Shown here piece by piece: positions 1-13,513 of a DNA stretch of 13,513 nucleotides. This DNA comes from Actinomycetes bacterium. GTDB taxonomy: Bacteria > Actinomycetota > Actinomycetes > Mycobacteriales > Micromonosporaceae. Location: the NCBI GenBank assembly GCA_023437285.1, contig JAEZGP010000542.1, forward strand, positions 1 through 13,513. Direction: 5' to 3'. A program made the translations under genes and the position numbers. The number at the start of each line of letters is the position of its first letter. The first letter of the stretch is position 1. The notes beneath the pieces are model-generated. The model ran no database searches and had not been told where the DNA came from. It was given only the letters and a program-made list of their open reading frames with translations.

Positions 1-318
1 GGGGTGCTGCGCTACCGGGCCCGGACCGCGCCGGCGTACCGACTGTTCCGGCTCAACGTGCCCGGGGTCGCCCGGCCAGGATTGGTGCGCACCGGCGACG
101 GGCCCGCGGGGGGCGTGGCCGTGGAGGTGTGGCAGCTGCCGCATCAGGGCATCGGCGCGCTCCTCGACCTCATCCCCGCGCCGCTCGGCCTGGGCCGCGT
201 CGAACTGGACGACGGCACGCTGGTCACGGGGTTCCTCGCGGAGGAGTACGCCACCCGCGACGCCACGGACGTCAGCCACCACGGCTCCTGGCGCGCCGCC
301 CTCGCGGCCGTGGCCTAG
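1..318 (+). CDS. atzF: Allophanate hydrolase, C-terminal fragment (cut by window edge)
   Basis: The frame is open from base 1 and stops with TAG at 316-318, so only about the last 105 residues are present and the true start lies outside the window. The visible part resembles the C-terminal domain of allophanate hydrolases (AtzF/DUR1,2 type), the small gamma-glutamylcyclotransferase-like domain after the amidase domain. The recognisable stretches are AVEVWQLP, the IPAPLGLGRVELDDG block, VTGFL and the terminal HGSWRAAL. The family converts allophanate to ammonia and CO2; the N-terminal amidase domain with its Ser-Ser-Lys triad would lie upstream and cannot be checked. The gene converges on the Uma2 gene 17 bases away. 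The biuret-hydrolase-like gene on the other strand at 1025-1717 would make its substrate, which strengthens the call. The GTG at base 4 is an internal codon, not the start. Confidence 0.82.
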   Translation, partial: GVLRYRARTAPAYRLFRLNVPGVARPGLVRTGDGPAGGVAVEVWQLPHQGIGALLDLIPAPLGLGRVELDDGTLVTGFLAEEYATRDATDVSHHGSWRAALAAVA

Positions 319-335
319 TCGGCCGGACCAGGACG

Positions 336-881
336 TTAGGCCAGGTCGGCCGGGTCGATCGTGACGGCGACCGGCTCGGTCAGCGTCAGCACGCCACCGG
401 CCGCGTGCTGCGTGTAGTGATCGCCATCGAGGCGTAACAACCGCAACCCGATCTCGTCGCCGTCCGGCTCCACCAGCAGGTACCACTCGAGGCCCGCGTC
501 GGCGTAGTAGTGCATCTTCAGGAGGCGGCCGTTGAACGCGTTACTCGGCGACACGATCTCCGCGATGAGGCGCACGGCCGAGCCGTCCACGGCCGGCTCG
601 CGTGGATCGATCCGATCGACGACGACCAGGTCGGGAATCGGGATTCGCCCGGCCCGCAGCCGTACGTTCACCGCTTCATAAACGCGCAGTCCTCGACTCT
701 CGGCCGGTCGCCTGAGCAGGGCGTGCAGCAGATGCGAGATCTCCTGGTGCTGCGGCGTCGGTGCCGGCGTGACGATCAGTCCCCCGTCGAAGAGTTCCAC
801 CCGGTCAGTGGTCTCGCCCAGCGCGAGGTAGTCCTCCTCGGTCCACGGGATCCCCCGGTAGCCCAGCGTCTCGGCCGTCAT
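336..881 (-). CDS. Uma2 family (DUF820) restriction-endonuclease-like protein
   Basis: This 181-residue protein has the Uma2/DUF820 layout: an N-terminal W-T-x-E-D-Y segment, V-E-L-F-D-G-G (residues 28-34), the QHQ-x-I-S-x-L-L helix, then the PD-(D/E)xK-like core. The likely catalytic residues are D84 in PIPDLVVVD, E108 in AEIVSPSN and K122, followed by the typical KMxYYADAGLEWYLLVEP block. The family is widespread and often multicopy in actinomycetes and cyanobacteria, and its biological role is unsettled. The start is ATG at 879-881, with GGAGGT eight bases upstream. It lies behind the hairpin at 939-970, so it is probably transcribed separately from the transporter operon. Its place between the hydrolase and allophanate hydrolase genes looks like a passenger insertion rather than a pathway step. 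Confidence 0.85.
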   Translation of the reverse strand: MTAETLGYRGIPWTEEDYLALGETTDRVELFDGGLIVTPAPTPQHQEISHLLHALLRRPAESRGLRVYEAVNVRLRAGRIPIPDLVVVDRIDPREPAVDGSAVRLIAEIVSPSNAFNGRLLKMHYYADAGLEWYLLVEPDGDEIGLRLLRLDGDHYTQHAAGGVLTLTEPVAVTIDPADLA

Positions 882-938
882 GGTGCACCACCTCCGGGTC
901 CCAGTCTGCCGTCAGGGCACGCGCGGCGTCCGGGCATG

Positions 939-970
939 GAGTGGGCCGGACCGTGCCGTCCGGCCCACTC
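939..970 (-). terminator. Perfect 13-bp stem hairpin after the hydrolase gene
   Basis: GAGTGGGCCGGAC (939-951) pairs perfectly with 958-970 across a 6-base loop. It starts 54 bases after the stop codon of the hydrolase gene (1025) and ends before the Uma2 start (881). No U-tract follows, as is common for terminator hairpins in GC-rich actinomycetes. I read it as the end of the gntR-transporter-hydrolase transcript. Confidence 0.72.
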
Positions 971-1024
971 TGTGAACCCCGGCGCCGGACGGGAGGTGAT
1001 GCCGCCGCCGAGCCTGTCACCCGG

Positions 1025-1717
1025 TCAGGCGCCGATGGCCGCCAGGAGGGCCGACGACGGGGCGATGGCCCCGAACACGCCGCCCTGCATGAGGATCATG
1101 TTCAGCGCCGCCTGGTAGTTGCCGACGTCGGTGGCGCCCGTGCAGTCCGTCAGCAGCAGGCACTCGAAGCCGCGGTCGTTGGCCTCGCGCATGGTCGTGT
1201 GCACGCACACGTCGGTGGTGATGCCGGTCAGCACGATGTGCGTGATGCCCCGGTTGCGCAGCAGCAGGTCCAGGTCGGTGCCGTAGAACGAGCCCTTGCC
1301 CGGCTTGTCGATGATCATCTCGCCGGGCTCGGGGTAGACCTCGGGAACGATGTCCCAGCCGGGCTCGCCGCGCACCAGGATGCGCCCGCACGGGCCGGCG
1401 TCGCCGATGCCGGCGCCGATCTGCTTGCTGCGCCACAGTTTGTTGGGCGGGCAGTCGGCCAAATCGGGCCGGTGGCCCTCGCGGGTGTGGAAGATGTGGA
1501 ATCCGGCCGCGCGCATGGCGGCGAGCACCTTCTGGGTGGGTGCCAGGCCGGCCCGGGTCAGGTTCAGGTCGTAGCCCATCGTGTCGACGTAGCCGCCCGG
1601 CCCGCAGAAGTCGGTCTGCCAGTCGATGTTGATGAGCACGGTACGCGCGGGGTCGATGCTGCCGTCGTACGGCCAGTTGTACGGCTTGGCCTCGACCTGG
1701 GGAAACGTCGTCGTCAC
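1025..1717 (-). CDS. biuH: Isochorismatase-fold cysteine amidohydrolase, probable biuret hydrolase
   Basis: This 230-residue cytoplasmic protein belongs to the isochorismatase-like cysteine hydrolase superfamily. The expected triad is visible: D36 in IDWQTDF, K138 in [12 protein letters not shown] and C171 in [13 protein letters not shown], with the G-I-T/T-x-x-C nucleophile elbow. From memory, Rhizobium BiuH uses Asp36, Lys142 and Cys175, which matches in order and almost in spacing. BiuH hydrolyses biuret to allophanate and ammonia. Close relatives with the same fold cleave triuret (TrtA), ureidoacrylate (RutB) or N-carbamoylsarcosine, so the substrate is not proven by sequence. The partial allophanate hydrolase gene nearby favours biuret or triuret. 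The start is GTG at 1717, supported by GGAGGT at 1724-1729 with a 6-base spacer. It is the last gene of the operon, 60 bases after the binding-protein gene, with a hairpin between them. Confidence 0.8.
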
Positions 1718-1738
1718 GCGGTCACCTCCGGTAACGGG

Positions 1739-1770
1739 GATGGGCCGGGCAGCCAGCCGCCCGGCCCATC
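1739..1770 (-). promoter_or_regulatory. 12-bp intercistronic hairpin between binding protein and hydrolase
   Basis: GATGGGCCGGGC (1739-1750) pairs perfectly with 1759-1770 around an 8-base loop, starting 7 bases after the stop of the binding-protein gene. No U-tract follows and the next SD begins 10 bases further on. It may be a partial terminator, or an mRNA-stabilising end that leaves more binding-protein message than hydrolase message, as is known for other ABC importer operons. The structure is seen; the effect is inferred. Confidence 0.6.
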
Positions 1771-1777
1771 GAACGGG

Positions 1778-2959
1778 TCAGGAGGACGGGATCTTGCCGA
1801 CCACGCCCTCGACGAAGTACGTGATCGACTCGATGGTCTTGTAGTCGGGGATGGTCCCGGCCGGAATCTGGATCTTGCCGTCCTGGTCGACGACGGGCCC
1901 GGCGAACGGCGAGCCGTCCTTCGCAATCTTCGCGGCCGCCTCCTCGACGAGCTTCTTCGTCTCGTCGGTCACGGCCGGGCCGTACGGGGACTGGACGAAC
2001 GGGTTGTCGCCGGTCTTGAGGCCGACGCGGAAGTTGGCGTTGTACTCGCTGCCGGTGAAGCCGCCGTCGAGGGTCTTCTGCACGATCTTCGTGTAGAGCG
2101 GCCCCCACTTCCATTCCGACCCGGTCAGCCAGCCCTTCGGGGCGATCGACTGCGCGTTGGCGTGGTAGCCGACCGTGTACTTGCCGGCCGCCTCGGTGGC
2201 CTTGATGACCGTGGCGGTGCAGTCCTGGTGCTGGCTGACCACGTCCACACCCTGGGCGAGCAGGCTGTCGACGGCCGCCTTCTGCTTGCCGGGGTCACAC
2301 CAGCTCGACGTGTTGACCGTGTACGTCTTCGCGTTCGGGTTCACCGACTTGGCCCCGAGCTGGAAGGCGTTGATGTTGTCGAGCGTCTGCGAGATCGGGA
2401 ACGCGTACACGTACCCGAGCTTGTTGGTTTTGGTCGTCTTGCCGGCGACGATGCCGGCCAGGTAGACGGGCTCGTACACGGTGCCGAAGTAGGTGCCGAA
2501 GTTCGGCGGCAGCGTGCCGTCGACCAGGTTGCCCTGCTGCACGACGACGACGTCGGGGTGGGCGGCCGCGACCTTGAGCGCCGGGTCCTTGTGACCGTAC
2601 GAGGTGGCAAAGATGATCTTCGCCCCCTGAGCGATCATGCCCTCCATGATGCGCGTCGCGTTGTCGTCCTCCGGCACGTTCTCCGCCGTGAGCACCTTCA
2701 GGTCGGGGTAGGCCTTCGCTACCTCCTGGCTGCCCTCGTAGGCCGCCTGGTTGTAGCCGTAGTCGTCCTTGGGGCCGACGAAGATGAAGCCGATCGCCTT
2801 GCCGCCGGTGCCGGGCTTGCCGGCGGCCCCGCCACCGCCCGCCGCGTTCTCCGAGGTGTTGGTGGCGCAGGCGCTCGCCACCGGCAGCGCGAGCGCCAGG
2901 AGCAGCGCCAGCGCCGCGGTCCGGCGCGTTCGCCGCCGGGACCCGTATGCAGCACGCAT
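1778..2959 (-). CDS. BMP family ABC transporter substrate-binding lipoprotein
   Basis: This is a 393-residue exported protein. An Arg-rich start and a hydrophobic run (residues 15-27) lead to a lipobox A-S-A-C with C31 as the lipidated cysteine, then a Gly/Ala-rich linker to about residue 53. The mature domain has the basic membrane protein (BMP/PnrA, Peripla_BP type) pattern: FIFVGPKDDYGYNQAAYEG (59-76), IIFATSYGHKDPAL, NFGTYFGTVYEPVYLAGIVAG and the GVDVVSQHQDC strand end. The characterised family members bind purine nucleosides. With a ureido hydrolase next door, this one more likely feeds a nitrogen-rich small substrate, which is inference. C221 (SSWCDP) and C247 (HQDCTA) are the only mature-domain cysteines and could form a disulfide. 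The start is ATG with a weak AAAGG. A hairpin-rich gap separates it from the permease, so its expression may be set separately. Confidence 0.9.
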   Translation of the reverse strand: MRAAYGSRRRTRRTAALALLLALALPVASACATNTSENAAGGGGAAGKPGTGGKAIGFIFVGPKDDYGYNQAAYEGSQEVAKAYPDLKVLTAENVPEDDNATRIMEGMIAQGAKIIFATSYGHKDPALKVAAAHPDVVVVQQGNLVDGTLPPNFGTYFGTVYEPVYLAGIVAGKTTKTNKLGYVYAFPISQTLDNINAFQLGAKSVNPNAKTYTVNTSSWCDPGKQKAAVDSLLAQGVDVVSQHQDCTATVIKATEAAGKYTVGYHANAQSIAPKGWLTGSEWKWGPLYTKIVQKTLDGGFTGSEYNANFRVGLKTGDNPFVQSPYGPAVTDETKKLVEEAAAKIAKDGSPFAGPVVDQDGKIQIPAGTIPDYKTIESITYFVEGVVGKIPSS

Positions 2960-3014
2960 CGCAGTAACCTTTCAGGTGCGTCCAGGGACACGAGATGTCG
3001 AATTCGGGTGGTAC

Positions 3015-3045
3015 CTGGTGCGTGTATCGGTGCTTCGCGCACCAG
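3015..3045 (-). repeat. Inverted repeat in the permease-to-binding-protein gap
   Basis: CTGGTGC at 3015-3021 is exactly complementary to GCACCAG at 3039-3045, with 17 bases between. A shorter alternative pairing, GGTGC with GCACC around 3030-3043, competes with it. It lies 55-85 bases upstream of the binding-protein start codon. It could be an RNA structure in the leader or a DNA-binding site; nothing further supports either. Confidence 0.35.
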
Positions 3046-3047
3046 CT

Positions 3048-3069
3048 CCGGGCGGTTGCCGCCGCCCGG
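3048..3069 (-). promoter_or_regulatory. 8-bp hairpin downstream of permease 2
   Basis: CCGGGCGG (3048-3055) pairs with 3062-3069 around a 6-base loop. With the neighbouring hairpin at 3074-3093 it gives two GC stems in a row just after the permease coding region. The likely reading is attenuation or RNA-end protection between the membrane genes and the binding-protein gene; no U-tract is present. Confidence 0.45.
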
Positions 3070-3073
3070 GGCG

Positions 3074-3093
3074 CCCGCGCGTCAGCGCGCGGG
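3074..3093 (-). promoter_or_regulatory. 8-bp hairpin with the permease 2 stop codon in its loop
   Basis: CCCGCGCG (3074-3081) pairs with 3086-3093, and the 4-base loop (3082-3085) holds the TGA stop of the permease gene. A ribosome ending translation here would melt the stem, so transcription termination could depend on whether the permease message is being translated. The pairing is seen; the coupling is inferred. Confidence 0.4.
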
Positions 3094-3999
3094 AGTCATG
3101 TCGAACACCTGCGACAGCCCGTCGGGCGCCGCGTTGGCACGCCGCCGGCCGAGCACGACCAGCGCCACCAGCGTGACGACGTAGGGCAGGGCGTCGAGGA
3201 CGAACTGGTTGAGCCCGATGCCGCGGGCCTGCAACGCGGGCGACAGCGCCAGCGCCGCGCCGAACAGGTACGCGCCGCTCACCGCGCGCAGCGGGTGCCA
3301 GGCCGCGAAGATGACCAGGGCCACCGCGATGAAGCCGCGGCCTGCGGTCATGTTCTCAAACCAGGCATTCGCGTACGCCGTGGACAGCTGCGCGCCGCCG
3401 ACCCCGGCGAGCAGCCCGCCGCCGACGACGGCCAGGTAACGGACGAGCACCGGCGAGTGTCCGTACGCGCGCAGCACCTCCGGCTTCTCCCCCGCCCCGC
3501 GCACGGTCAGCCCGACGCGGCTGCGGTAGAGCAGCCACCACATCGCCGGCGCCACCAGGTACGACAGGTAGGTCAGCGGGTCGTGGTTGAACAGCACGTC
3601 GCCGACGAACGGGATGCTGGACAGCCCCGGGACCGCCCACGGCCGGAACGCGACGATCTCGCGGCCCACGTACGCGGCCCCGAACAGCGACGTCAGCCCG
3701 AGCCCGAGGAACAGCACCACGAAGCCGGTCGCCAACTGGTTGGCGCCGCGCCACAGCACGACGACCGCGTGGACGAGGGCGAGTAGGCCGCCCGCGACGG
3801 CGCCGGCCACGACGCCGACCCACGGGCTGCCCGTCGAGGCGGTCACGGCGTAGGCCGCGAGCGCCCCGGTGAGCATGCTGCCCTCCGTACCGAGGTAGAT
3901 GACGCCGGCCCGCTCGGCGAGCGTCTCGCCCAGGGCCGCGTACAGAATGGACGTTCCGCCCCGGACCCCGCCGGCCGCGACCTCGGTGATCAGGTTCAT
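3082..3999 (-). CDS. ABC transporter permease 2 (BPD_transp_2, nucleoside/BMP type)
   Basis: This 305-residue, very hydrophobic inner-membrane protein belongs to the branched-chain/ribose/nucleoside permease superfamily, NupQ/YufQ type. Typical segments are GETLAERAGVIYLGTEGSMLTGA near the N-terminus, the cytoplasmic loop GLTVRGAGEKPEVLRAYG that contacts the ATPase, and GFIAVALVIFAAWHP followed by GAYLFGAAL. About 8 to 9 membrane segments can be drawn. The same frame stays open far upstream but loses membrane-protein character there. The start is therefore ATG at 3997-3999, which overlaps the TGA of permease 1 by 4 bases and has GGAAGG-rich sequence ahead of it. It forms the heterodimeric channel with permease 1. 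Confidence 0.9.
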   Translation of the reverse strand: MNLITEVAAGGVRGGTSILYAALGETLAERAGVIYLGTEGSMLTGALAAYAVTASTGSPWVGVVAGAVAGGLLALVHAVVVLWRGANQLATGFVVLFLGLGLTSLFGAAYVGREIVAFRPWAVPGLSSIPFVGDVLFNHDPLTYLSYLVAPAMWWLLYRSRVGLTVRGAGEKPEVLRAYGHSPVLVRYLAVVGGGLLAGVGGAQLSTAYANAWFENMTAGRGFIAVALVIFAAWHPLRAVSGAYLFGAALALSPALQARGIGLNQFVLDALPYVVTLVALVVLGRRRANAAPDGLSQVFDMTPAR

Positions 4000-5096
4000 G
4001 CCCCCACCTTCCGGGACTTCAGGTTGGAGCCGAGGACGACCAACAGGACGACGGCCATGAGCACGTTGACCGAGGCGGCTGGCAGGCCCGAGTTGATCTG
4101 CAGGCTGTCGCCCGCCATCGCGATCGCCGCCAGCAGCACGGCCGCCGCGGCCACCCGCAGCGGGCGGTGCCCGGCGAGCCAACTGACCAGGAAGCCGATG
4201 TAGCCGAAGTTGAGCGTCATGTGCGGCCGCAGCTTGAACTCCGTGCCGGCCAGGTGCACCATGCCGGCAAGGCCGGCTAGCGCGCCGCCGACGAGCATCG
4301 CCGAGAACAGCAGCAGGCCCACCCGCATGCCGGCCTGCCGCGCGGCCTCCGGGTTGCCGCCGACCACCCGCAGGCGGAAGCCCCACTCGGTCTTCTTCAG
4401 CGCCCACCAGACCGCGACCACCGCGATGACCGCGATGACGAGCCCGGCGTTGAGCTTGTGACCGGGCAGGAACAGCGGCAGCCGGGCCGCCTCCGCCAGC
4501 GGCCGGGAGGACGGCTGGCCGAAGCCGGACGCGTCCTTCCACGGGTCGTAGATGAGGCCCAGCATCAGGTCCAGCGCCACGAAGTTGAGCAGCAGGGTGC
4601 TGATCGCCTCGTTGACCTTCACGGTCAGCCGCAGGCCGGCGGCCAGCCCCGCCCAGAGCGCCCCGCCGACCGCGCCGGCGAGGAGCATGAGCAGGAGTAC
4701 GACCATCCCGGGCAGGCGCTGGTCGGTGACGAGGCCGACCCCGGCGGCACAGACCGCGCCGATGATGATCTGACCCTCGCCGCCCACGTTGAGCAGACCG
4801 GCCCGCGCCGGCACGGCGACCGCCAAACCGGCCAGCACCAGCACGACCGCGCGGATGACGACGGTCTCCGCCTGGGCGGGGGTCGTCAGCGAGGCGAGCA
4901 TGTCGGCGTACATGGTGAAGGGGTTGACGCCCTTCACGGCGACGAAGGCGCCGAAGATGACCGGCGCGCCGGCGATGGCGACCACCCAGCCCAGCCACGG
5001 TACGGCCGCCAGGCGCGCGGCCAGCGGCTTGTCCCGGGCGGGCGGTTCGGGGGCCGTCGCCGGCACGGCCGGTTCGAGCACGCTCGTGTCGCTCAC
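3996..5096 (-). CDS. ABC transporter permease 1 (BPD_transp_2, nucleoside/BMP type)
   Basis: This is a 366-residue integral membrane protein of the NupP/YufP type. A Pro/Ala-rich cytoplasmic N-terminus of about 30 residues precedes the first helix. The family signatures [54 protein letters not shown] (the ATPase-coupling loop) and [15 protein letters not shown] are all present. The frame continues upstream without stops, but that part is antisense-like filler. The start is GTG at 5094-5096, which overlaps the ATPase stop codon by 4 bases and has GAGGTG 5 bases upstream. It pairs with permease 2 to form the membrane pore. Confidence 0.9.
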
Positions 5097-6643
5097 GCTG
5101 TCACCTCGCCGCCGCCGAGCATGAGCTGGCCGATGGCGTAGCGGTCCGTCTCGCCCGGCACCACGACACCCGCGAGGTGACCGTTGTGCAGGACCGCGAT
5201 CCGGTCGCTGAGCGCCAGCAGCTCGTCGAGGTCCTCGGACACGACCACCACCGCCGCGCCGGCGTCGCGCTGCTCCAGCAGCAGCTCCTGCGTGCGTCGC
5301 GTGGTGGCGATATCGAGCCCCCGGCTCGGGTACGCCGCGACGACGACCCTGGCGGAGGCGCCCAGGGCCCGGGTGAGCACGACGCGCTGGATGTTGCCGC
5401 CGGACAGCTCGGCCATGACCCGGTGGCCGGGGGCCATCCGCAGCTGCGCCTTCTCCGCCTTCGCCGCGACGTCGGCGTTGACCTTCTTCCAGTCGATGCC
5501 GAGGCCCTTGCGGAACCGGCCCAGGTCGGCCAGGGCCATGTGCTCCACGATGGACAGACCCGGCACGACCGCGTCGGTGATCGGGTCCTCCGGCACGCCG
5601 ACAGCGTCCTCGGCGAGCGCCTGGCGCGGGTCGCCGCCCTTGAGCGCCGTCTCCCCGAGCGTCACCGTACCGGCGGTGACCTTGCGCTGGCCGAGGATGA
5701 CCTCGCACAGCTCGCGTTGGCCGCTGCCGGCCACGCCGGCCACGCCCACCAGCTCGCCGGGCGCGATCTCCAGGCTCACGTCGCGCAGGGCGGGCTGGCC
5801 CCGGTCGCCCGTGACGCTGACGTGGCTGAGGACCACGGCCGGCGGGGTGTCGGCGCCGGGGCGCTCGCGGTGGCCGGCCAGCGGCGGTACCGAGCGGCCG
5901 ACCATCGCCTCGACCAGTTCGGCGTCGGTGAGTTCCTTCGGGTCGGTGTTGCGCAGCACCGTACGCCCGCCGCGCAGCACGGTAACGCGGTCGGCGATCG
6001 CCCGGGCCTCGCCGAGCTTGTGCGTGATGATCACGATCGACAGGCCGGCGTCGCGCAGTGCGCCGACCGCCGCGAAGAGCGCGTCGACCTCCTGCGGGGC
6101 CAGGACGCTCGTCGGCTCGTCGAGGATGAGCAGCCGGGCACCCGCCATGAGGACCTTGAGGATCTCGACGCGCTGCCGTTCCCCGATCGACAGGTGGCGC
6201 ACGACCGCGTCCGGGTGCACGGGCAGCCCGTACCGGTCGGCGGCCTCAGCGACCTGCGCGGACAGCGCCTTGCGGTGGAACCGCAGCCCACCGCCCGGCA
6301 TGGCCAGGGCGATGTTCTCCGTCACGGTGAACGCCGGCACCAGCCGCATGTCCTGGAAGACCATGCCGATGCCGGCCGAGCGCGCGGTCGCCGGGGAGTC
6401 GATGGTGACGGGTGCGCCGTCGACGTGCAGCTCGCCCTCGTTCGGCTGGTAGACGCCGTAGATCAGCTTCATCAGCGTGGACTTGCCGGCGCCGTTCTCG
6501 CCGAGCACCGCGTGGACCTCGCCGGCGGCCACGTCGAAGTCCACTTCGTGGTTGGCGACGACCTCGCCGAACCGGCAGGTCAGCCCTCGTACGGACAGCA
6601 GCGGCGGGACGACCGCCGTGGGTGCCTCGACGGTGGCGGTCAT
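5093..6643 (-). CDS. ABC transporter ATP-binding protein with two fused nucleotide-binding domains
   Basis: This 516-residue ATPase is of the RbsA/NupA (sugar and nucleoside importer) type. The first domain is canonical: Walker [10 protein letters not shown] (48-56), Q-loop Q97, signature LSIGERQR (151-158), Walker [10 protein letters not shown] (171-179) and H208. The second domain has lost residues needed for hydrolysis: [11 protein letters not shown] (301-311) lacks the Walker A lysine, [12 protein letters not shown] (433-444) lacks the catalytic Glu, and VVSEDLDE stands where the H-loop histidine would be, while LSGGNIQR (413-420) is intact. This asymmetry is normal in the subfamily. Its ATG overlaps the TGA of gntR by 4 bases, with little SD of its own, so translation is probably coupled. 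It energises uptake through the two permeases that follow. Confidence 0.93.
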
Positions 6644-7350
6644 GGAATGATGCCGAGTTCGCTGGCCATCATCTTGGCGAGCGCCCTCGTTGCGCGCTCC
6701 TCCACGACGGCGATGGACTCGCCCAGATGCATCGTGAACCTCCTGTGCGCGGTGTCGAGGTCGCCGGTACCGACCGCCTCGACGATGCCGAGATGCTGGG
6801 TGATGGTGCGGTCGATGCGTTCCTCGGTGAGGAAGTCGTGCATGCGCACGACGCGGATGCGCTCGTTGACCACGCCGAGCAGCTCGGCCAGGGCGGCGTT
6901 GCCGGAGGCCTCGGCCAGGCGTACGTGGAAGCTCTCGTCCAGCAGGACGAAGCCGGGGTCGGGATCGGGTGTGTCGGCGCGCAGTGCCCGCCAGTCCTCG
7001 CGCAACGACTCGATCATGTCGGCGTCGTGTCGGGTGCCCAGTTCCTCGGGGCGCAGCATGGCCGACATCTCCAGCGAGCGGCGCACCTCGTACAGCTGGC
7101 GGATCTCGATCAGGTTCGGCGCCGTCGGGGAGTAACCGCCGTCGGGCAGGCGCTCGACGAGGCGCTCCGCGTGCAATCGGACGAGCGCCTGGCGCACCGG
7201 CGTGCGCGAGACGCCCAGCAGGGCCGCGAGGCGTTCCTCACCGAGGCGGATGCGCAGCGGGAACTCGCCCATCAGCAGGCGGCGCTTCAGTTCGGTGTAC
7301 GCGCGCTCACCGGCCTGACCCCGCTCCGCTGTATACAGCGTTGGATCCAT
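6640..7350 (-). CDS. GntR family (FadR/FCD subfamily) transcriptional regulator
   Basis: This 236-residue protein has an N-terminal winged helix (about residues 12-75): [14 protein letters not shown], then [29 protein letters not shown] and the GGYSP wing. The C-terminal FCD ligand domain has the usual metal ligands visible as D138 and H142 (LDESFH), H186 and H208 (FTMHLGES). FCD regulators usually repress catabolic operons until a small acidic or metabolite ligand binds. Being the first gene of the operon and overlapping the ATPase gene by 4 bases, it very likely controls its own transcript. The start is ATG at 7348-7350; an in-frame TAG lies 12 bases upstream and no other start occurs before M27. 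There is no SD upstream, so the message may be leaderless. The natural ligand could be biuret, allophanate or a related compound, but this is unproven. Confidence 0.9.
7329..7338. promoter_or_regulatory. Candidate GntR operator, 10-bp palindrome CTGTATACAG
   Basis: CTGTATACAG is a perfect palindrome covering codons 5-7 of the GntR gene, about 10 bases inside the coding region. TGTATACA-like palindromes are known operators for several FCD-type GntR regulators. If transcription begins at or near the ATG, a protein bound here would block early elongation. The palindrome is seen; its use as an operator is inferred. Confidence 0.45.
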
Positions 7351-7356
7351 ACGCAG

Positions 7357-7362
7357 AAGCTA
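7357..7362 (-). promoter_or_regulatory. Possible -10 element for a leaderless gntR operon transcript
   Basis: On the minus strand TAGCTT (fits TANNNT) ends 6 bases before the ATG at 7350, the spacing seen in leaderless actinobacterial genes. No SD is present between them. I see no convincing -35 hexamer 16-19 bases further upstream, so the call is weak. Confidence 0.3.
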
Positions 7363-7393
7363 GGTATCGCCCACGTCGCCCAGATATCGCGAT
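7362..7393. repeat. Direct repeat TATCGC spaced 20 bases, second copy in an 8-bp palindrome
   Basis: AGGTATCGC (7362-7370) and AGATATCGC (7382-7390) differ at one base and are phased exactly 20 bases apart. The second copy runs into the palindrome ATCGCGAT (7386-7393). They lie in the divergent gap between gntR and the PPC gene. Two-turn phasing would suit protein binding on one face of the helix, but the repeat is short. Confidence 0.25.
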
Positions 7394-7525
7394 GGTTAGA
7401 ACTGTGTGGCGTGGGCGGGCCAATACGACATAACGGGGTCGGAACCGCCTCTCGCTCTATCGTGGACGCTCGCCGCCGGGCATGCTGTCTGCCTGCCCCT
7501 CGTGATCGCACCGGATGGAGGCTTG

Positions 7526-7987
7526 ATGCGCAGCCGGGAGCTGACCCTCGGACGCACCTTCGCGGTGGTCTTCGACCACGGGGAGGACTTCATGACGGCG
7601 CTGAGCGAGTTCTGCGCGGCCAACGGCGTACGTCAGGGTTATGTGCCGGGCTTCCTCGGCGCGTACAGCAGCGCGGACCTGGTCGCCACGTGCGAGGCCC
7701 CGGCCGACCCGGTCGCTCCCGTGTGGACCCGGCTGCAGGTCGAGTACGTCGAGGCGATCGGCTGCGCCACCCTCGCCTGGGACCCGGACGCCGCCCGCGT
7801 CGTCCCGCACGTGCATCTCGCCACCGGCGTCAAGCGCTACGCCGCCGCCGGGCACACCAGTCACCTGCTCGGCGCCACGGTCCAGTTCGTCAACGAGCTG
7901 CTGGTCTTCGAGGTCGTCGCACCCCAGCTGCGCCGCCCGCCGCGGCCGGACCTCTACAACATCCCCGTGCTCACCCTGGAGGACTAG
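7526..7987 (+). CDS. PPC (PCC/DUF296) domain protein
   Basis: This 153-residue protein consists of essentially one PPC domain (plant and prokaryote conserved, DUF296). Visible landmarks are the opening RTFAVVFDHGEDFMTALSEFCAANGV, the GFLGAYSSADL turn, a central WDPDAARVVPHVHLATG with the conserved H-x-H, and GHTSHLLGATVQFVNELLVFEV. Bacterial members are small trimeric proteins with conserved histidines that may hold a metal; they are sometimes annotated as DNA-binding by analogy with plant AHL proteins, but their function is not settled. The start is ATG at 7526 with GGAGG (7517-7521) four bases before it; the frame is open 40 codons further upstream but without domain character. It is divergent from gntR with 175 bases between, and may share its control region. 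It converges with the Smr gene 13 bases away. Confidence 0.82.
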   Translation: MRSRELTLGRTFAVVFDHGEDFMTALSEFCAANGVRQGYVPGFLGAYSSADLVATCEAPADPVAPVWTRLQVEYVEAIGCATLAWDPDAARVVPHVHLATGVKRYAAAGHTSHLLGATVQFVNELLVFEVVAPQLRRPPRPDLYNIPVLTLED

Positions 7988-8000
7988 GGCGTACGGGGCC

Positions 8001-8252
8001 TCAGAAGCGGAAGTGCACGAAGACGCGGCCGAAGTTCTTCGAGTCCTTCTCGACCCGGTGGTACCGGGCCTTGATCTCCTTCTGGTCCAGGAAGCGCAGG
8101 ACCCGCTTCTTGAGCTGGCCGGAACCCTTACCGGGGATGATCTCGACGAGTTCGGCCTTCTTGCGGACCGCCTCGTCGATGATGTCGCGCAGCGCGCGCT
8201 CGATGTCCTGGTTGCGGTTGTAGATGTCGTGCAGGTCCAGCTTGAGCTTCAC
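8001..8252 (-). CDS. Stand-alone Smr domain protein
   Basis: This 83-residue protein is a bare Smr (small MutS-related) domain. It opens with the LDLH motif (residues 5-8), has the helix DIERALRDIIDEAVRKKAELVEIIPGKG and the nucleotide-contact loop IPGKGSGQLKKRV (39-51; families usually show H-G-x-G or T-G-x-G here), and ends with GRVFVHFRF. Smr domains nick branched DNA or cleave RNA; bacterial homologues include ribosome-rescue nucleases, but this small actinobacterial type is uncharacterised. The start is GTG at 8250-8252, 9 bases after the stop of the upstream Cys-motif gene and without a clear SD, so it is probably translated as part of that three-gene message. Confidence 0.87.
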   Translation of the reverse strand: MKLKLDLHDIYNRNQDIERALRDIIDEAVRKKAELVEIIPGKGSGQLKKRVLRFLDQKEIKARYHRVEKDSKNFGRVFVHFRF

Positions 8253-8261
8253 ACCGCGAAT

Positions 8262-8459
8262 CTACTGGGTCGCGACGGCGGCGCGTCCCCCGGACGTGAG
8301 CACCTTGTGCGCGGCGATGCGCGCGTCGCAGGGCGCGGGCCGGCCGCACGCCCGGCAGCAACCGGTCCACGAGACCTCGGTGTGGGCGGCGAGGACCCGG
8401 CGCGCGGCGGCCACCCGCTCGGCGGAGAAGCGCGCCGCGAAGTCCCGGTCGCCGATCAT
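8262..8459 (-). CDS. Small Cys-motif protein, possible zinc-binding, second tandem paralogue
   Basis: This 65-residue protein is not assigned to a named family. It has a basic helical N-terminal half with ARRVLAAH (19-26) and a cysteine cluster G-C-C-R-A-C-G-R-P-A-P-C (C34, C35, C38, C44), followed by a helix with H51. The C35-x2-C38-x5-C44 spacing with H26 could bind zinc as a CCCH site. The same frame opens further upstream, but ATG at 8457-8459 fits best: it overlaps the TGA of the previous gene by 4 bases. It aligns end to end with the product of that gene. Together with the Smr gene behind it, it forms a compact operon. Function unknown. Confidence 0.65.
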   Translation of the reverse strand: MIGDRDFAARFSAERVAAARRVLAAHTEVSWTGCCRACGRPAPCDARIAAHKVLTSGGRAAVATQ

Positions 8460-8704
8460 CGCGTGGCCTCCGGCGTCGCGCCGGTGACGAGCATCGCGTA
8501 GAGCGCGTCCGGACAGGGCCATTCGGCGCCGCAGTCGATGCACACCCGCCGAACGACGGGACGGGCGGCGTGGATGTCGAGGATGTCGCGCGCCTGGGCG
8601 ACATCGGCCCGGGAGGCCAGTGAGGACAGCGGTACGGACAGGTCACGGTTCATCCGTAGGGGGTCACGTCGCGGTTCTGCCAGCCCATCGCTCCCGGTCA
8701 ACAT
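8456..8704 (-). CDS. Small Cys-motif protein, possible zinc-binding, first tandem paralogue
   Basis: This 82-residue protein is not assigned to a named family. The C-terminal half has ARDILDIH (38-45), then C-I-D-C-G-A-E-W-P-C (C55, C58, C64), the same C-x2-C-G-x4-C layout as the next gene, and a short helix DALYAML. The first 17 residues are Arg/Pro-rich. I start it at ATG 8702-8704 because GGAGAG (8709-8714) sits 4 bases ahead; the internal ATG at 8651-8653 has no SD, although a 65-residue product from there would match its paralogue in length. It is divergent from the XRE regulator gene (174 bases between) and first in the three-gene operon with the Smr gene. Confidence 0.62.
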   Translation of the reverse strand: MLTGSDGLAEPRRDPLRMNRDLSVPLSSLASRADVAQARDILDIHAARPVVRRVCIDCGAEWPCPDALYAMLVTGATPEATR

Positions 8705-8708
8705 ACTT

Positions 8709-8714
8709 CTCTCC
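8709..8714 (-). promoter_or_regulatory. Shine-Dalgarno that decides the 8704 start
   Basis: On the minus strand GGAGAG lies 4 bases before ATG 8704 (GGAGAGAAGT then ATG). The in-frame ATG at 8653 has only pyrimidine-rich sequence ahead of it. Confidence 0.55.
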
Positions 8715-8760
8715 GATCTTTCGCCACCCAAAGTGATGTCAGCAACGCTCTGCGTCAACG

Positions 8761-8771
8761 TTATGGCATAA
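8761..8771. promoter_or_regulatory. 11-base palindrome TTATGGCATAA in the divergent gap
   Basis: TTATG and CATAA mirror each other around one base, in an AT-rich island of the otherwise GC-rich 174-base gap between the Cys-motif operon and the XRE gene. On the minus strand TTGACG (8753-8758) lies just beyond it and could be a -35 hexamer, but no clear -10 follows at the right distance. It may be an operator for the XRE protein or simply promoter DNA. Confidence 0.3.
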
Positions 8772-8878
8772 GTTTGCCTCACGCAGCGCGATCGGGCGAT
8801 TTCGCCACGCTAATCCGTCCCGCCCTGCTTGCTCCCCGTCGTCCGTAACACGAGACTTGTGCCCGGAAGGAGAGGCCC

Positions 8879-9724
8879 ATGCCGAAGCCGATCGGTCCGA
8901 CCATCCCGCGATGGCAGCTCGGCGAGCAGCTGGCCCGGCTGCGCGAAGAAGCGGACCTGTCACAGGCCGACATGGCCAAAAACCTCGGCTGCTCGGTCAG
9001 CAAGATCCAAAAGATCGAGGCCGGCGATGTGGGCATCGTGCGCTCCGAGCTCCTGGCGATGCTCGACGCGTACGGCGCGATGGATGACCCCCTACGCGCG
9101 GAACTCCTCGAACTGCAACGCCTGGGCAAACAGCGCGGCTGGTGGTCCACCTTCGGCCAACTCCCCACGCCCTTCGCCACGCTCCTGGGCATGGAGAGCG
9201 CCGCAACCAGCATCCGCGTTTTCGAACCCATGATCGTCTATGGGCTTCTACAAACCCGGGAATACACCACCGAACTCATCAAGGCGGCGCAGCCCGAACT
9301 CGCCGATGCCGACCGGCAATGGCGGATTCGCCACGCACGACAGGAGCGTGTACTCGGCGATGACCCACCCGCTATACACGTCATTCTCGACGAGGCCGCC
9401 CTCCGCCGTCCCGTGGGCGACAACAAGATCATGCGGGCACAGCTGGAGAGCCTACTCACACTGCCCCAGCACGTCAGTCTGCAAGTCGTTCCCTTTCAGG
9501 CGGGCGGATACCCAGGCCAGCTAGGCCAACTGTCAATATTTGAGTTCCCCCCACGTCTGCATTCACCCGTGGCGTACGCCGAAACCCAGGCCGGGAACCT
9601 ATATTTAGAAAAGGAGGAGGATTTGCGTCGGTGCAACGCACGGTTCGATCGCATCGCCGAGGTTGCACTCAACAGCGAAAAATCCTCCGAACGGATACAA
9701 GAAATCATCGCCACTATCTTTTGA
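8879..9724 (+). CDS. XRE family helix-turn-helix regulator with DUF5753
   Basis: This 281-residue protein has an N-terminal Cro/C1-type HTH (about 14-68: LGEQLARLREEADLSQADMAKNLGCSVSKIQKIEAG) and a large C-terminal DUF5753 domain (about 95-275). The latter is recognisable from YGLLQTREYTTELI, the RHARQERVL helix, IHVILDEAALRRPVG, MRAQLESLL, VSLQVVPFQAGGYPG, FSIFEF-like LSIFEF and VAYAETQAGNLYLE. This architecture is almost confined to actinomycetes, where it occurs in many copies next to DUF397 genes; characterised relatives affect development and antibiotic production (WhiJ/AbaA-like loci in Streptomyces). The start is ATG 8879 with AAGGAG 6 bases ahead. The DUF397 gene follows 13 bases downstream in the same operon. 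The 3' third is visibly richer in A/T than its neighbours. Confidence 0.93.
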   Translation: MPKPIGPTIPRWQLGEQLARLREEADLSQADMAKNLGCSVSKIQKIEAGDVGIVRSELLAMLDAYGAMDDPLRAELLELQRLGKQRGWWSTFGQLPTPFATLLGMESAATSIRVFEPMIVYGLLQTREYTTELIKAAQPELADADRQWRIRHARQERVLGDDPPAIHVILDEAALRRPVGDNKIMRAQLESLLTLPQHVSLQVVPFQAGGYPGQLGQLSIFEFPPRLHSPVAYAETQAGNLYLEKEEDLRRCNARFDRIAEVALNSEKSSERIQEIIATIF

Positions 9725-9737
9725 AATTGGAGACATA

Positions 9738-9941
9738 GTGAACTTGGACCTCACCGGAGCCCAGTGGAAGAAGAGCAGTCGCTCGGCGGGCAACGGGCAG
9801 TGCGTTGAAGTTGCGCTCGTCGGCGACCATGTCGCGGTCCGGGACTCCAAGCACCCGTCTACACTGCCCCTGACCTTCTCCCGCGACGCGTGGGTCTCGT
9901 TCATCAGCGCCGTCAATCGCGGCGACTTCGACGCCGAGTAG
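9738..9941 (+). CDS. DUF397 domain protein
   Basis: This 67-residue protein has the standard DUF397 pattern: LTGAQWKKSSRS (5-16), GNGQCVEVA (18-26), VAVRDSKHP (32-40) and a C-terminal FSRDAWVSFISAVNRGDF. DUF397 proteins are encoded beside XRE/DUF5753 regulators and are thought to antagonise or modulate them. The start is GTG 9738 with GGAG 5 bases ahead, just after the regulator stop; the frame runs further upstream inside the regulator gene, but that part does not belong to the domain. The hairpin at 9953-9984 ends the pair. Confidence 0.92.
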   Translation: MNLDLTGAQWKKSSRSAGNGQCVEVALVGDHVAVRDSKHPSTLPLTFSRDAWVSFISAVNRGDFDAE

Positions 9942-9952
9942 AGGACGGCCCG

Positions 9953-9984
9953 GCGTTCCCCGCCGCGGTTGCGGCGGGGAACGC
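9953..9984 (+). terminator. Perfect 14-bp stem, 4-base loop hairpin after the XRE/DUF397 pair
   Basis: GCGTTCCCCGCCGC (9953-9966) pairs without mismatch with 9971-9984 around the loop GGTT. It begins 11 bases after the DUF397 stop codon. No U-tract follows. Stem length and position make it the strongest terminator-like structure in the window. Confidence 0.8.
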
Positions 9985-10017
9985 TGAACCATTGCGCAAC
10001 GCTGGCACTGTGGACGC

Positions 10018-10686
10018 ATGCAGAGAAGGATCGTCGAACATCTCCGTCCCGCGGCTCTGGCGGTCGGCCTGATCGGGGCGATTGTCCTCACCACGGCCCT
10101 CTTGATCGCATCTCCACCAGGCATCAGGGCGTTAGCGGACTCGCGCAGCGACTGGGACCGACTATCCGCGGTCGGGCAGACTTACGAAGGAATCGCAGCG
10201 ATCCTGGCCGGGCTGGCGTTTTGTGGTGTGGCCGTGTCGCTTCTCCTTCAATGGCGCCAGAACCGATTGACGCAGGTTATCGCTATGGCGGAACGGCAGC
10301 ACGAGCTACAACGTCTTGCTCTGGATAATCCGCAGCTCAGCCACCTCGGCATGCCGTCCGATCGGGATCCAGACACGGACGTCAGGCCCTGGATCTATTG
10401 CCATATGCTCGTCTGGCACTGGCGTCTCAGTTGGGAAATCGGTCAACTCAGTGACAGGCGCTTGGAACACCACGCCCGCGACCTGTTCAGCGCGCCCGAG
10501 GCACAAGACTGGTGGGTTGTCGTACGCGATAGATGGGCGAACAACGACAGCCGACGGTCACGCCGGTTCGTCGCGCTCGTCAACTCAGGATGCCAACGAG
10601 CAGTTGCGGCAAACAACACCAGATCGGATGAACCGCCAGCAACATCGCCACCCGATGGCACGCGTTTACCCAGTAAATCGTCATGA
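10018..10686 (+). CDS. DUF6082-type membrane protein
   Basis: This 222-residue protein has two predicted membrane helices, about 13-32 (ALAVGLIGAIVLTTALLI) and 57-77 (EGIAAILAGLAFCGVAVSLLL). A soluble region follows: the QWRQNRLTQVIAMAERQHELQRLALDNPQL helix, a W-rich segment YCHMLVWHWRLSWEIG and DWWVVVRDRW. The second helix with its S-A-V-G-Q-T-Y-E-G-I-A-A lead and the following Q-x-R/RQH-E-L-x-x-L-A-L block match the actinobacterial DUF6082 family as I remember it, often found near XRE regulators; function unknown. The ATG has no SD ahead of it, so the start is uncertain. The C-terminal 30 residues are Ser/Pro/Asn-rich and look disordered. Codon use is less GC-biased than in the flanking core genes. 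Confidence 0.68.
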   Translation: MQRRIVEHLRPAALAVGLIGAIVLTTALLIASPPGIRALADSRSDWDRLSAVGQTYEGIAAILAGLAFCGVAVSLLLQWRQNRLTQVIAMAERQHELQRLALDNPQLSHLGMPSDRDPDTDVRPWIYCHMLVWHWRLSWEIGQLSDRRLEHHARDLFSAPEAQDWWVVVRDRWANNDSRRSRRFVALVNSGCQRAVAANNTRSDEPPATSPPDGTRLPSKSS

Positions 10687-10742
10687 TCAAGGGGTGGTCG
10701 ATCCGGGTACGGACGACCTACCCTGCAGGGACCGTATCGAGA

Positions 10743-10760
10743 GCGTGACGCCCGTCACGC
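10743..10760. promoter_or_regulatory. 18-base palindrome fitting the Crp/GlxR core, upstream of the acyl-CoA synthetase gene
   Basis: GCGTGACG and CGTCACGC are perfect inverted copies with 2 bases between. Inside them is GTGA-N6-TCAC, the core of the Crp/GlxR binding consensus of actinobacteria, though the outer T and A of the full consensus are replaced by C and G. A further half-site CGTGAC follows at 10764-10769. It sits 25 bases before the start codon, a position suited to repression or to a roadblock. It could also form a weak hairpin ending the preceding gene. Confidence 0.45.
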
Positions 10761-10784
10761 GCCCGTGACCGAAGGATGCCCCCA

Positions 10785-12608
10785 ATGACGCTGGCCCTGC
10801 CGTACCGGTCGATCCCGGACATGTTCCTGCATCGAGTCGCGGCCACGCCCGACACCGAGGCACTCGGCTATCCGACCGCCGACGAGGACATCGCCTGGCT
10901 GACCTGGGCTCAGGTGGGCACGCGCGCCACGGCCATCGCCGCCGGGCTGCGCCAGTTGGGGGTCCGTCACGAGGACCGCGTCGCGATTCTCGCCTCGACG
11001 CGCCTGGAGTGGGTGCTCGCCGACCTCGGCGTCATGTGCGCGGGGGCCGCCACCACCACGGTGTACCCGACGACGGAGCCCGAGGACGCGGCCTTCATCA
11101 TCAGCGACTCCGGCTCCACGGTGCTCATCGCGGAGAACAACGAGCAGGTGACCAAGGTGGCCGGGGCGAGCCTGCCCAGCCTCACCCACATCGTCCTCAT
11201 CGACGGCGAGCCCACGGCCAGCGCTCCCGTGCCCGTACTCACCCTGGCCCAGCTGGAGGCCGACGGCGCCGCCGCCCTCGCCGCGGACCCCGACCTCATC
11301 ACGAACGTGGTCAAGGAGATCGGTCCGGACGATCTCGCCACGCTGATCTACACGTCGGGCACGACGGGCCGGCCCAAGGGCGTCGAACTGCTGCACGCCG
11401 GCTGGGTGTGGGAGGGCGTGGCGCAGGCCGACATCGACCTGCTGCGCCCCAACGACATCCAGTACCTGTGGCTGCCGCTGTCACACTCGTTCGGCAAGAC
11501 GCTGCTGTGCGGGGTGTTGCACGCCGGCGTGCAGACCTATGTGGACGGCCGCGTCGACAAGCTGGTGGTCAACCTGGCCAAGGTGCAGCCCACGGTGCTG
11601 TGCTCGGCGCCGCGCGTGTTCGAGAAGGTGTACAACGCCGCCGTCGCCAACGGCACGTCGGCCGGTGGCCTCAAGGCGAAGATCTTCAACTGGGCGGTCC
11701 GGACCGGCAAGGCCAAGGTCGCGTTGGAGCAGGCGGGCAAGCCCGTCCCGGCGGGCCTCAACCGCAAGCACGCCATCGCCACCAAGCTGGTCTTCTCGAA
11801 GCTACAGGCCCGCCTCGGCGGACGCATCCGGGTGCTGGTGTCCGGGTCGGCCCCGCTGAGCCCGCAGATCTCGGAGTTCTTCTCCGCCGCCGGGCTGCCG
11901 ATCCTGGAGGGGTACGGCCTGACCGAGACGTCGGCCGGCAACTTCGTCAACCGCCCCGGCCGCCTGCGCATCGGTACGGTCGGCCTGGCCATGGGCGACC
12001 TCGAGGCGAAGATCGACAGCGACGGCGAGGTGCTGCTGCGCGGGGTGCCCGTCATGCGCGGCTACCACAACCTGCCCGACGAGACGGCCGCCGCGTTCAC
12101 CGACGACGGTTTCTTCCGCACCGGCGACATCGGCGAACTCGACGCCGACGGGTACCTGAAGATCACCGACCGGAAGAAGGACCTCATCAAGACCTCGGGC
12201 GGCAAGTACGTCGCGCCGAGCCACATCGAGGGCCTGTTCAAGTCGATGGCCCCGCTCGTGTCCCAGGCGCTGGTGATCGGGCAGGCCCGCAACTACTGCA
12301 CGATGGTCGTCACCCTGGACCCCGACGCGCTGGCCACCTGGGCCAAGGGCGGGGAGCTGGAGGGCCGGTCCTACTCGGACCTCGTGGCGGCGCCCGAGAT
12401 TCACGCGGTGGTATCTGGTTACATCGACGAGTTGAATGAGAAGCTCAACCGCTGGGAAACGATTAAGAAGTTCACGATTCTGCCGCGCGACCTGTCCATC
12501 GCCGACGGCGAGCTGACCCCCTCGCTGAAGATCAAGCGACGGGTGGTCGAGGCCAGCTTCGCGCGGGAGATCGAGTCCATGTACGAGGGCACGGTCGCTC
12601 AGCTGTGA
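10785..12608 (+). CDS. fadD: Long-chain acyl-CoA synthetase (AMP-forming), FadD15-like
   Basis: This 607-residue ANL-superfamily enzyme activates fatty acids with ATP to acyl-AMP, then acyl-CoA. Motifs in order: P-loop YTSGTTGRPKG (189-199), substrate-pocket region LPLSHSFGKTLLCG, adenine-binding GYGLTET (376-382), TGD (446-448), the hinge/linker DRKKDLIKTSGGKYVAP (462-478) and the catalytic lysine K582 in LTPSLKIKRR. The insert with KIFNWAVRTGK and the overall length near 600 are typical of the bacterial FadD15/long-chain group rather than short-chain synthetases. I start at ATG 10785 because GAAGGA lies 8 bases ahead; an in-frame ATG at 10776 overlaps that SD. A Crp-like palindrome lies just upstream and a 9-bp hairpin follows the stop codon. 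Confidence 0.93.
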   Translation: MTLALPYRSIPDMFLHRVAATPDTEALGYPTADEDIAWLTWAQVGTRATAIAAGLRQLGVRHEDRVAILASTRLEWVLADLGVMCAGAATTTVYPTTEPEDAAFIISDSGSTVLIAENNEQVTKVAGASLPSLTHIVLIDGEPTASAPVPVLTLAQLEADGAAALAADPDLITNVVKEIGPDDLATLIYTSGTTGRPKGVELLHAGWVWEGVAQADIDLLRPNDIQYLWLPLSHSFGKTLLCGVLHAGVQTYVDGRVDKLVVNLAKVQPTVLCSAPRVFEKVYNAAVANGTSAGGLKAKIFNWAVRTGKAKVALEQAGKPVPAGLNRKHAIATKLVFSKLQARLGGRIRVLVSGSAPLSPQISEFFSAAGLPILEGYGLTETSAGNFVNRPGRLRIGTVGLAMGDLEAKIDSDGEVLLRGVPVMRGYHNLPDETAAAFTDDGFFRTGDIGELDADGYLKITDRKKDLIKTSGGKYVAPSHIEGLFKSMAPLVSQALVIGQARNYCTMVVTLDPDALATWAKGGELEGRSYSDLVAAPEIHAVVSGYIDELNEKLNRWETIKKFTILPRDLSIADGELTPSLKIKRRVVEASFAREIESMYEGTVAQL

Positions 12609-12610
12609 GG

Positions 12611-12636
12611 GTTGGGCGGCCGGCCGCCCGCCCAAC
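12611..12636 (+). terminator. 9-bp hairpin between fadD and the membrane-protein gene
   Basis: GTTGGGCGG (12611-12619) pairs with 12628-12636 around an 8-base loop, beginning 2 bases after the fadD stop. The next SD starts only 6 bases later, so it may be a leaky terminator or simply protect the fadD message. No U-tract. Confidence 0.55.
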
Positions 12637-12657
12637 AACGGTGGAGGACTACCCCTG

Positions 12658-13482: not shown

Positions 13483-13513
13483 GGCGACATCGTCAGGGCG
13501 ACATCGTCAGGGC
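13482..13513. repeat. 14-base tandem repeat at the window end
   Basis: GGGCGACATCGTCA occurs at 13482-13495 and again at 13496-13509, and the next copy begins (GGGC) at the last base. Each unit contains the inverted pair GAC-ATC-GTC. The array starts on the last base of the stop codon of the membrane-protein gene and runs out of the window, so its full length and role are unknown. Confidence 0.6.

Follow-up and report, generated by a model that had tools for sequence, protein, structure and literature searches.

A probable biuret import and degradation operon with a BMP-type importer in a Micromonosporaceae genome

A 13,513-nucleotide stretch of DNA from an Actinomycetes bacterium of the Micromonosporaceae (GenBank assembly GCA_023437285.1, contig JAEZGP010000542.1, positions 1 to 13,513; hereafter the window) carries an operon that probably imports biuret, or a ureide much like it, and begins its mineralisation. 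The genes in question encode a biuret hydrolase (BiuH), a BMP-type ABC importer and a GntR/FCD regulator. With less confidence, though still leaning towards it, we place the BMP-type solute-binding protein in a separate cross-phylum importer subfamily for biuret or kindred ureides. This subfamily would have arisen from a purine-binding ancestor by pocket remodelling, would accompany biuret hydrolase or allophanate hydrolase, and would in many actinobacteria stand under one GntR operator, TGTATACA. The features concerned are as follows.

7327-7340, unstranded: predicted GntR operator, a 14-base perfect palindrome (CGCTGTATACAGCG) with core TGTATACA at 7330-7337 (from sequence)
6640-7350, minus strand: GntR/FCD transcriptional regulator, predicted operon repressor (PF00392, 50.1 bits, and PF07729, 74.9 bits, both above cut-off)
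5093-6643, minus strand: ABC importer ATPase with two nucleotide-binding domains (PF00005 in two stretches)
3996-5096, minus strand: ABC importer permease, subunit 2 type (PF02653, BPD_transp_2)
3082-3999, minus strand: ABC importer permease, subunit 1 type (PF02653, BPD_transp_2)
1778-2959, minus strand: BMP-type solute-binding protein (PF02608, Bmp; AtzT nearest solved by sequence)
1025-1717, minus strand: biuret hydrolase BiuH, isochorismatase fold (NF050097 above cut-off; 6XJM nearest solved; active site intact)
336-881, minus strand: Uma2-family gene, between BiuH and allophanate hydrolase (PF05685)
1-318, plus strand: allophanate hydrolase C-terminal domain, truncated by the window start and convergent to the operon (PF21986, NF006043, TIGR02713)

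The minus-strand genes at 1025-7350 are consistent with one operon, because 4-base overlaps link the first four (gntR, the ATPase and both permeases) and gaps of 122 and 60 bases follow. The importer set is whole, with PF02608, PF02653 in two proteins and PF00005 in two stretches, and the regulator carries both the GntR helix-turn-helix and the FCD domain above cut-off (Pfam). An earlier reading of this DNA, made from its letters and open frames alone (the sequence-only reading), had proposed exactly such an importer and regulator in a single operon, and Pfam matches and gene spacing agree with it. Its hydrolase with an isochorismatase fold and an Asp-Lys-Cys triad is likewise recovered (Pfam Isochorismatase; Asp32-Lys138-Cys171), as is an allophanate hydrolase end nearby.

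Biuret is well supported as the predicted substrate of the hydrolase. The protein matches the biuret amidohydrolase equivalog NF050097 at 411.2 bits against a cut-off of 370, over model positions 1-221 of 221, so that the identity suggested by the sequence-only reading holds at equivalog level. Its first PDB neighbour is the Rhodococcus biuret hydrolase (6XJM), followed by that of R. leguminosarum (6AZO); with both it shares a near full-length match, the triad, the biuret contacts and the BiuH-type diagnostic residues. The R. leguminosarum enzyme belongs to a cyanuric acid pathway, and no cyanuric acid hydrolase was found in the window. With an ungapped offset of 4 between the numberings, Asp32, Lys138 and Cys171 correspond to published Asp36, Lys142 and Cys175, and the biuret contacts Lys141, Thr167, Gln211, Phe37 and Tyr43 to published Lys145, Thr171, Gln215, Phe41 and Tyr47 (available part of the BiuH structure paper, PMC5806882). 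The window BiuH is also 99% identical to that of Luedemannella helvata.

The company that biuH keeps elsewhere points in the same direction. GTDB contigs were scanned with BiuH and the best 80 of at least 585 confirmed candidates were taken; these loci were picked by likeness to the window BiuH, and many are related to one another. Judged by open frames, 51 of the 80 encode the binding protein close to biuH. Allophanate hydrolase is nearby in 42, another amidase alone in 16, and a GntR protein of at least 40% identity in 28; 28 loci have both the binding protein and allophanate hydrolase. Where 7 kb or more of upstream DNA is available (64 loci), the binding protein is encoded within 6 kb on the biuH strand in 42, and the cassette is complete in 41. 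By chance, about 0.26 BMP genes would be expected per 64 windows of 12 kb (from 53 BMP genes, linked ones included, in 22 biuH-bearing genomes totalling 155.8 Mb). The usual actinobacterial order is GntR-ATPase-permease-permease-BMP-BiuH-allophanate hydrolase, and the usual proteobacterial and cyanobacterial order is BMP-permease-permease-BiuH-ATPase-TrtA. The sequence-only reading had named a consistent lack of allophanate hydrolase at orthologous loci as grounds for refuting it. Such a lack is not what the loci show: among the 70 offering 3 kb or more of downstream sequence, 37 contain one, 13 contain only another amidase and 20 contain neither by this count.

The binding protein itself carries the evidence for a subfamily. 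In a tree of 90 rows, built by a quick method with SH-aLRT as its sole support measure, 62 linked BMP proteins form one side of a branch (SH-aLRT 100) opposite 28 controls. The linked rows comprise 51 biuH-linked proteins, the window's included, and 11 from Micromonosporaceae. AtzT and Brucella 3S99 are among the controls, and no BiuH or allophanate hydrolase turned up within 1.5 kb on either side of the other 26. L002, whose binding protein is cut at its start, was dropped from the tree and from the count of the eight pocket residues, and four linked genes (L150, L151, L160, L161) were dropped from the controls. The window pocket consists of Tyr69, Ser120, Gln191, Asn195, Trp220, His244, Asp246 and His266, and this Tyr-Ser-Gln-Asn-Trp-His-Asp-His pattern is common to 47 of the 51 biuH-linked proteins.

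The nearest solved relative, AtzT (6PI5/6PI6), belongs to the atzSTUVW transporter of Pseudomonas sp. ADP and falls outside the branch of linked proteins. The BMP fold is shared, whereas the pocket differs: guanine-binding Glu165 becomes Gln191, Asn218 becomes His244, Asn220 becomes Asp246 and Asp239 (in our own numbering) becomes His266. A Gln stands at the position of the guanine-binding Glu in 48 of the 51 linked proteins. A purine-binding protein of the AtzT kind was therefore rejected, its guanine contacts Glu165 and Asn220 being replaced by Gln191 and Asp246. The putative B6 ABC transporter models of NCBIfam were also set aside, all four scoring below their curated cut-offs (80.2/400, 181.5/465, 142.1/400 and 432.4/670).

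The converse was examined in 396 evenly drawn Actinomycetota genomes, 27 of which gave a BMP match at E 1e-40. Three of these matches combine the pocket pattern with a biuH neighbour (L162, L163 and L164; L163 and L004 represent one gene). The pattern is missing in 23, of which 22 carry Glu, and no BiuH or allophanate hydrolase was found in the 1.5 kb flanks of these 23.

It is unlikely, though worth weighing, that the importer instead takes up a larger precursor such as a purine, nucleobase, cyanuric acid or triuret, from which other enzymes make biuret, leaving BiuH as a later step only. AtzT binds guanine at 0.11 uM, 2-hydroxyatrazine at 2.2 uM and cyanuric acid at 340 uM (available part of PMC6834077), and the bmpA-nupABC cassette is named a nucleoside transporter in the part of PMC12625717 available. 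In three BMP-less loci examined (L042, L048, L054), an NCS1 nucleobase-type permease adjoins biuH, and L042 additionally has an NCS2 permease and cyanuric acid hydrolase. Against a precursor, the window yielded neither a cyanuric acid hydrolase nor a purine gene, and 48 of the 51 linked proteins have Gln at the guanine-binding position where 22 of the 23 pattern-less Actinomycetota matches carry Glu. Moreover, PF09663 occurs in just 9 of 50 genomes with BMP-linked biuH (covering 50 of the 51 such loci), and cyanuric acid was rejected on this count as the usual source of biuret.

That the locus serves triuret, alone or together with biuret, with BiuH as a generalist, appears improbable. In the available part of PMC7948467, the nearest solved enzyme, 6XJM, hydrolyses triuret 25-fold better than the usual BiuH, although its kcat/KM on triuret is about 40-fold below that on biuret. 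The BMP pocket pattern is also seen beside biuH-trtA pairs. No TrtA gene was found in the window, and no second isochorismatase-like frame was recognised among its open frames. At the diagnostic sites the hydrolase has the BiuH letters (Asp169, Tyr43, Tyr49, Ser143 and Val214), where TrtA has, in the published excerpt, Glu160, Phe35, Asn41, Ala134 and Ile205. On this gene content and these residues, a TrtA identity and triuret as main substrate were rejected, and the triuret named by the sequence-only reading finds no support. Action on another amide (ureidoacrylate, N-carbamoylsarcosine or guanylurea) is very improbable. In its favour are a common fold and superfamily and a RutB model score of 108.7 bits; against it, that score is below the RutB cut-off of 378, the BiuH model passes its own, and the biuret contacts in the available part of the structure paper are all kept.

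For biuret import and degradation, the following route is proposed. The binding protein, a lipoprotein judged by its N-terminus, would clamp planar biuret between Tyr69 and Trp220 and hold it by Ser120, Gln191, His244 and Asp246. Evolution of this pocket may have turned the guanine-reading Glu into a Gln, able to read a molecule with both N-H and C=O, and added His and Asp. Biuret, the predicted substrate of the importer, would pass through the two permeases with the help of the double ATPase. Cys171 of BiuH, with Asp32 as base and Lys138, would then free ammonia and leave allophanate, as homology supports. The hydrolase ending at 1-318 would in turn convert allophanate to ammonia and CO2, judging from homology and relatives.

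This last enzyme is represented by its final 105 residues only. The frame at 1-318 matches PF21986 (AH_C) with 106.1 bits against a cut-off of 27 (positions 28-122 of 123), and TIGR02713 at positions 464-561 of 563, with 98.1 bits against a cut-off of 511. It thus shares with AtzF (TIGR02713) the C-terminal domain through to its end, and the amidase domain lies beyond the window. Since the gene is convergent to the operon, its transcript is separate, and it would require its own promoter here.

Relatives in the family nevertheless connect it to the importer. Eleven Micromonosporaceae genomes encode a binding protein with 78-81% identity to that of the window, and in 10 of them allophanate hydrolase follows directly, with no biuH between; in the eleventh (L111/L122), none was found beside the binding protein. 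By their named relatives (Phytohabitans, Solwaraspora, Actinoplanes) these represent few genera and are thus not 11 independent cases. In six of them (L123-L128), the C-terminal domains beside the orthologous binding proteins are 68-74% identical to that of the window over 97-102 residues; the best match among the 80 biuH loci reaches 57%. Because these relatives encode a close homologue directly beside the orthologous binding protein, the window allophanate hydrolase appears to be tied to the importer despite the opposite strands here. Together with the BiuH equivalog match and the single operon for importer and regulator, this supports the claim of the sequence-only reading that a ureido nitrogen source is imported and mineralised, with triuret removed. 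In all 11 genomes, biuH lies at a different place from the binding protein. Across the family it occurs in 103 of 354 genomes, always at 72% identity or less to the window BiuH, and each of the 103 has another match, with E 1e-60 or below; the second matches among those listed are adjacent and reach 51-56% identity.

The allophanate hydrolase position varies in other ways. AH_C forms a separate frame of about 130-150 residues in loci of Verrucomicrobia and cyanobacteria (L056:11317-11709, L057:8600-9046, L059:13084-13473, L064:8432-8833). At its expected place beside biuH, L034:8850-10340, L058:10693-12201 and L074:8697-10193 instead hold an amidase that reaches none of the curated cut-offs for the families listed, which resembles a gatA-like gene reported in archaea in the available part of PMC12625717.

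Regulation of the operon may be read from its head. Within the window, the palindrome holds the only copy of the 8-mer TGTATACA, against 0 in 200 shuffles; the palindrome overlaps codons close to the annotated gntR start. In 20 of 34 related loci whose operon head could be defined, the 8-mer is found between -300 and +150 relative to that head, with 0.51 expected, a count that excludes the window, where the motif was first spotted. It ranks first among 256 palindromic 8-mers. Only 21 sites exist in 631,497 bases, and the sole one away from a head accompanies the displaced gntR gene of L018. In the loci with gntR at a new position (L010, L013, L016, L018), the site yet remains before the ATPase gene. 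Sites of this kind are typical of FadR-type GntR proteins. We infer from these sequences that the GntR/FCD protein acts as a repressor by binding TGTATACA and would hold the operon silent until a pathway metabolite relieves it.

Several observations weigh against the operon function or the subfamily as proposed. The ligands of solved BMP relatives are guanine, nucleosides or riboflavin, and the linked proteins of L050, L060 and L062 deviate from the pocket pattern. The BMP protein is missing from 22 of the 64 biuH loci with enough upstream DNA. BiuH matches occur in 14 of the 396 Actinomycetota genomes, at 67% identity or more in 8, and only 3 of these 8 have a linked BMP protein. The one remaining BMP match of the 27 in that set, an orphan (L165/L204), comes close to the pocket pattern, with Thr for Asn169, and has no cassette or biuH nearby. 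The operator motif was not found at 14 of the 34 operon heads or in any of the 11 Micromonosporaceae loci examined (L061, L122-L131). The window allophanate hydrolase, presumed intact, has its main domain left of base 1 and lies on the opposite strand from the operon, behind the Uma2 gene, so that the window covers only part of the locus that the sequence-only reading took to be probably complete.

Two of these cases have further features. The three deviating proteins are alphaproteobacterial and have Trp for Tyr, Ile, Thr or Ser for Gln, and Asn for His; perhaps, judging by these residues, they bind another substrate. The L060 locus also encodes an AtzE amidase. Around the orphan (L204:7234-8433), the DNA gives no match to the genes of the transporter cassette (tblastn), and the next downstream frame is long (8411-11074).

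The sequence-only reading had suspected that the pairing of importer and enzyme was undescribed. This proved wrong, as the available part of PMC12625717 (mSystems 2025) reports biuH collocated with bmpA-nupABC, atzF, trtA and gntR in nitrifier genomes. The ammonia-oxidiser clusters described there combine the same four elements (a biuret hydrolase and an allophanate hydrolase with a BMP-type ABC transporter and a GntR regulator), often with trtA, trtB or allFGHK. Their transporter is termed a nucleoside transporter, and the available part offers no analysis of pocket or operator; the window differs in its convergent allophanate hydrolase behind a Uma2 gene. The gene pairing is therefore already known, and what is added here is the grouping of the linked proteins on one branch, their pocket pattern and the operator-like site. 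In a search of the openly licensed PMC literature, which does not hold most subscription papers, no report was found of a BMP importer assayed on biuret, of an operator for such a GntR regulator or of a biuret hydrolase pseudoenzyme.

Should this pocket be the signature of biuret import, a substrate would be assigned to BMP transporters from five bacterial phyla (among the linked tree rows). Some sources label such proteins sugar transport or basic membrane proteins. Biuret is an impurity of urea fertiliser. Together with triuret, it reaches soils through this fertiliser and also forms by uric acid oxidation (available part of PMC7948467). The label of nucleoside transporter is that of PMC12625717, in the part available.

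A BiuH paralogue precedes BiuH directly in 31 of the 80 loci (for example L001:9405-9965, L003:9393-9926, L004:9457-9969 and L018:9387-9953), and the two are fused as one protein in P0010, P0034 and P0057. Lys138 is substituted in 26 of 26 aligned paralogues, Cys171 in 26 of 31, and Gln211 is Ser in 31 of 31. By these residues the paralogue looks catalytically dead, and it may serve BiuH as a regulatory or structural partner. No such gene stands in the window, where 60 bases separate binding protein and BiuH.

Other transporters also occur beside biuH. A membrane protein of about 530 residues adjoins it in 9 of the 80 loci and co-occurs with the BMP protein in none of the 80, so that one of the two importers is present in 60; the remaining 20 are mixed. 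Examples are L061:11364-12974, L129:7760-9349 and L131:7198-8766, with others in L037, L049, L052, L056, L057, L073, L075 and L079. No family was found at E 0.001 for L061 and L129 in Pfam and NCBIfam or for L131 and L037 in Pfam, and no PDB relative for L061. A UraA-like fold is only suggested by a poor model (mean pLDDT 53), whose best Foldseek hits, to BicA, UraA and SLC26 proteins, reach E 1.5e-3. The NCS1 permeases of three of these 20, in Nocardia and Streptomyces, lie at L042:6401-10004 (the locus with the NCS2 permease and cyanuric acid hydrolase), L048:8705-9988 and L054:5327-6514. An ABC set of the sugar type is found in L030, which has neither importer; L069 and L077 retain the cassette permeases and end before the binding protein; no transporter candidate was seen next to biuH in L007 and L038.

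Within the window, the Uma2-family gene is probably a bystander, with zero matches at E 1e-5 across the 80 biuH loci, and no RNA element or tRNA scored above threshold. The remaining genes show no apparent link to the operon: a divergent PCC/DUF296 gene beside it (7406-7987), a small Smr-domain gene (8001-8252), an HTH-DUF5753 and DUF397 gene pair (8879-9941), an acyl-CoA-ligase-like gene (10776-12608) and a frame of no Pfam family with a Pro/Gln-rich repetitive tail (12658-13482).

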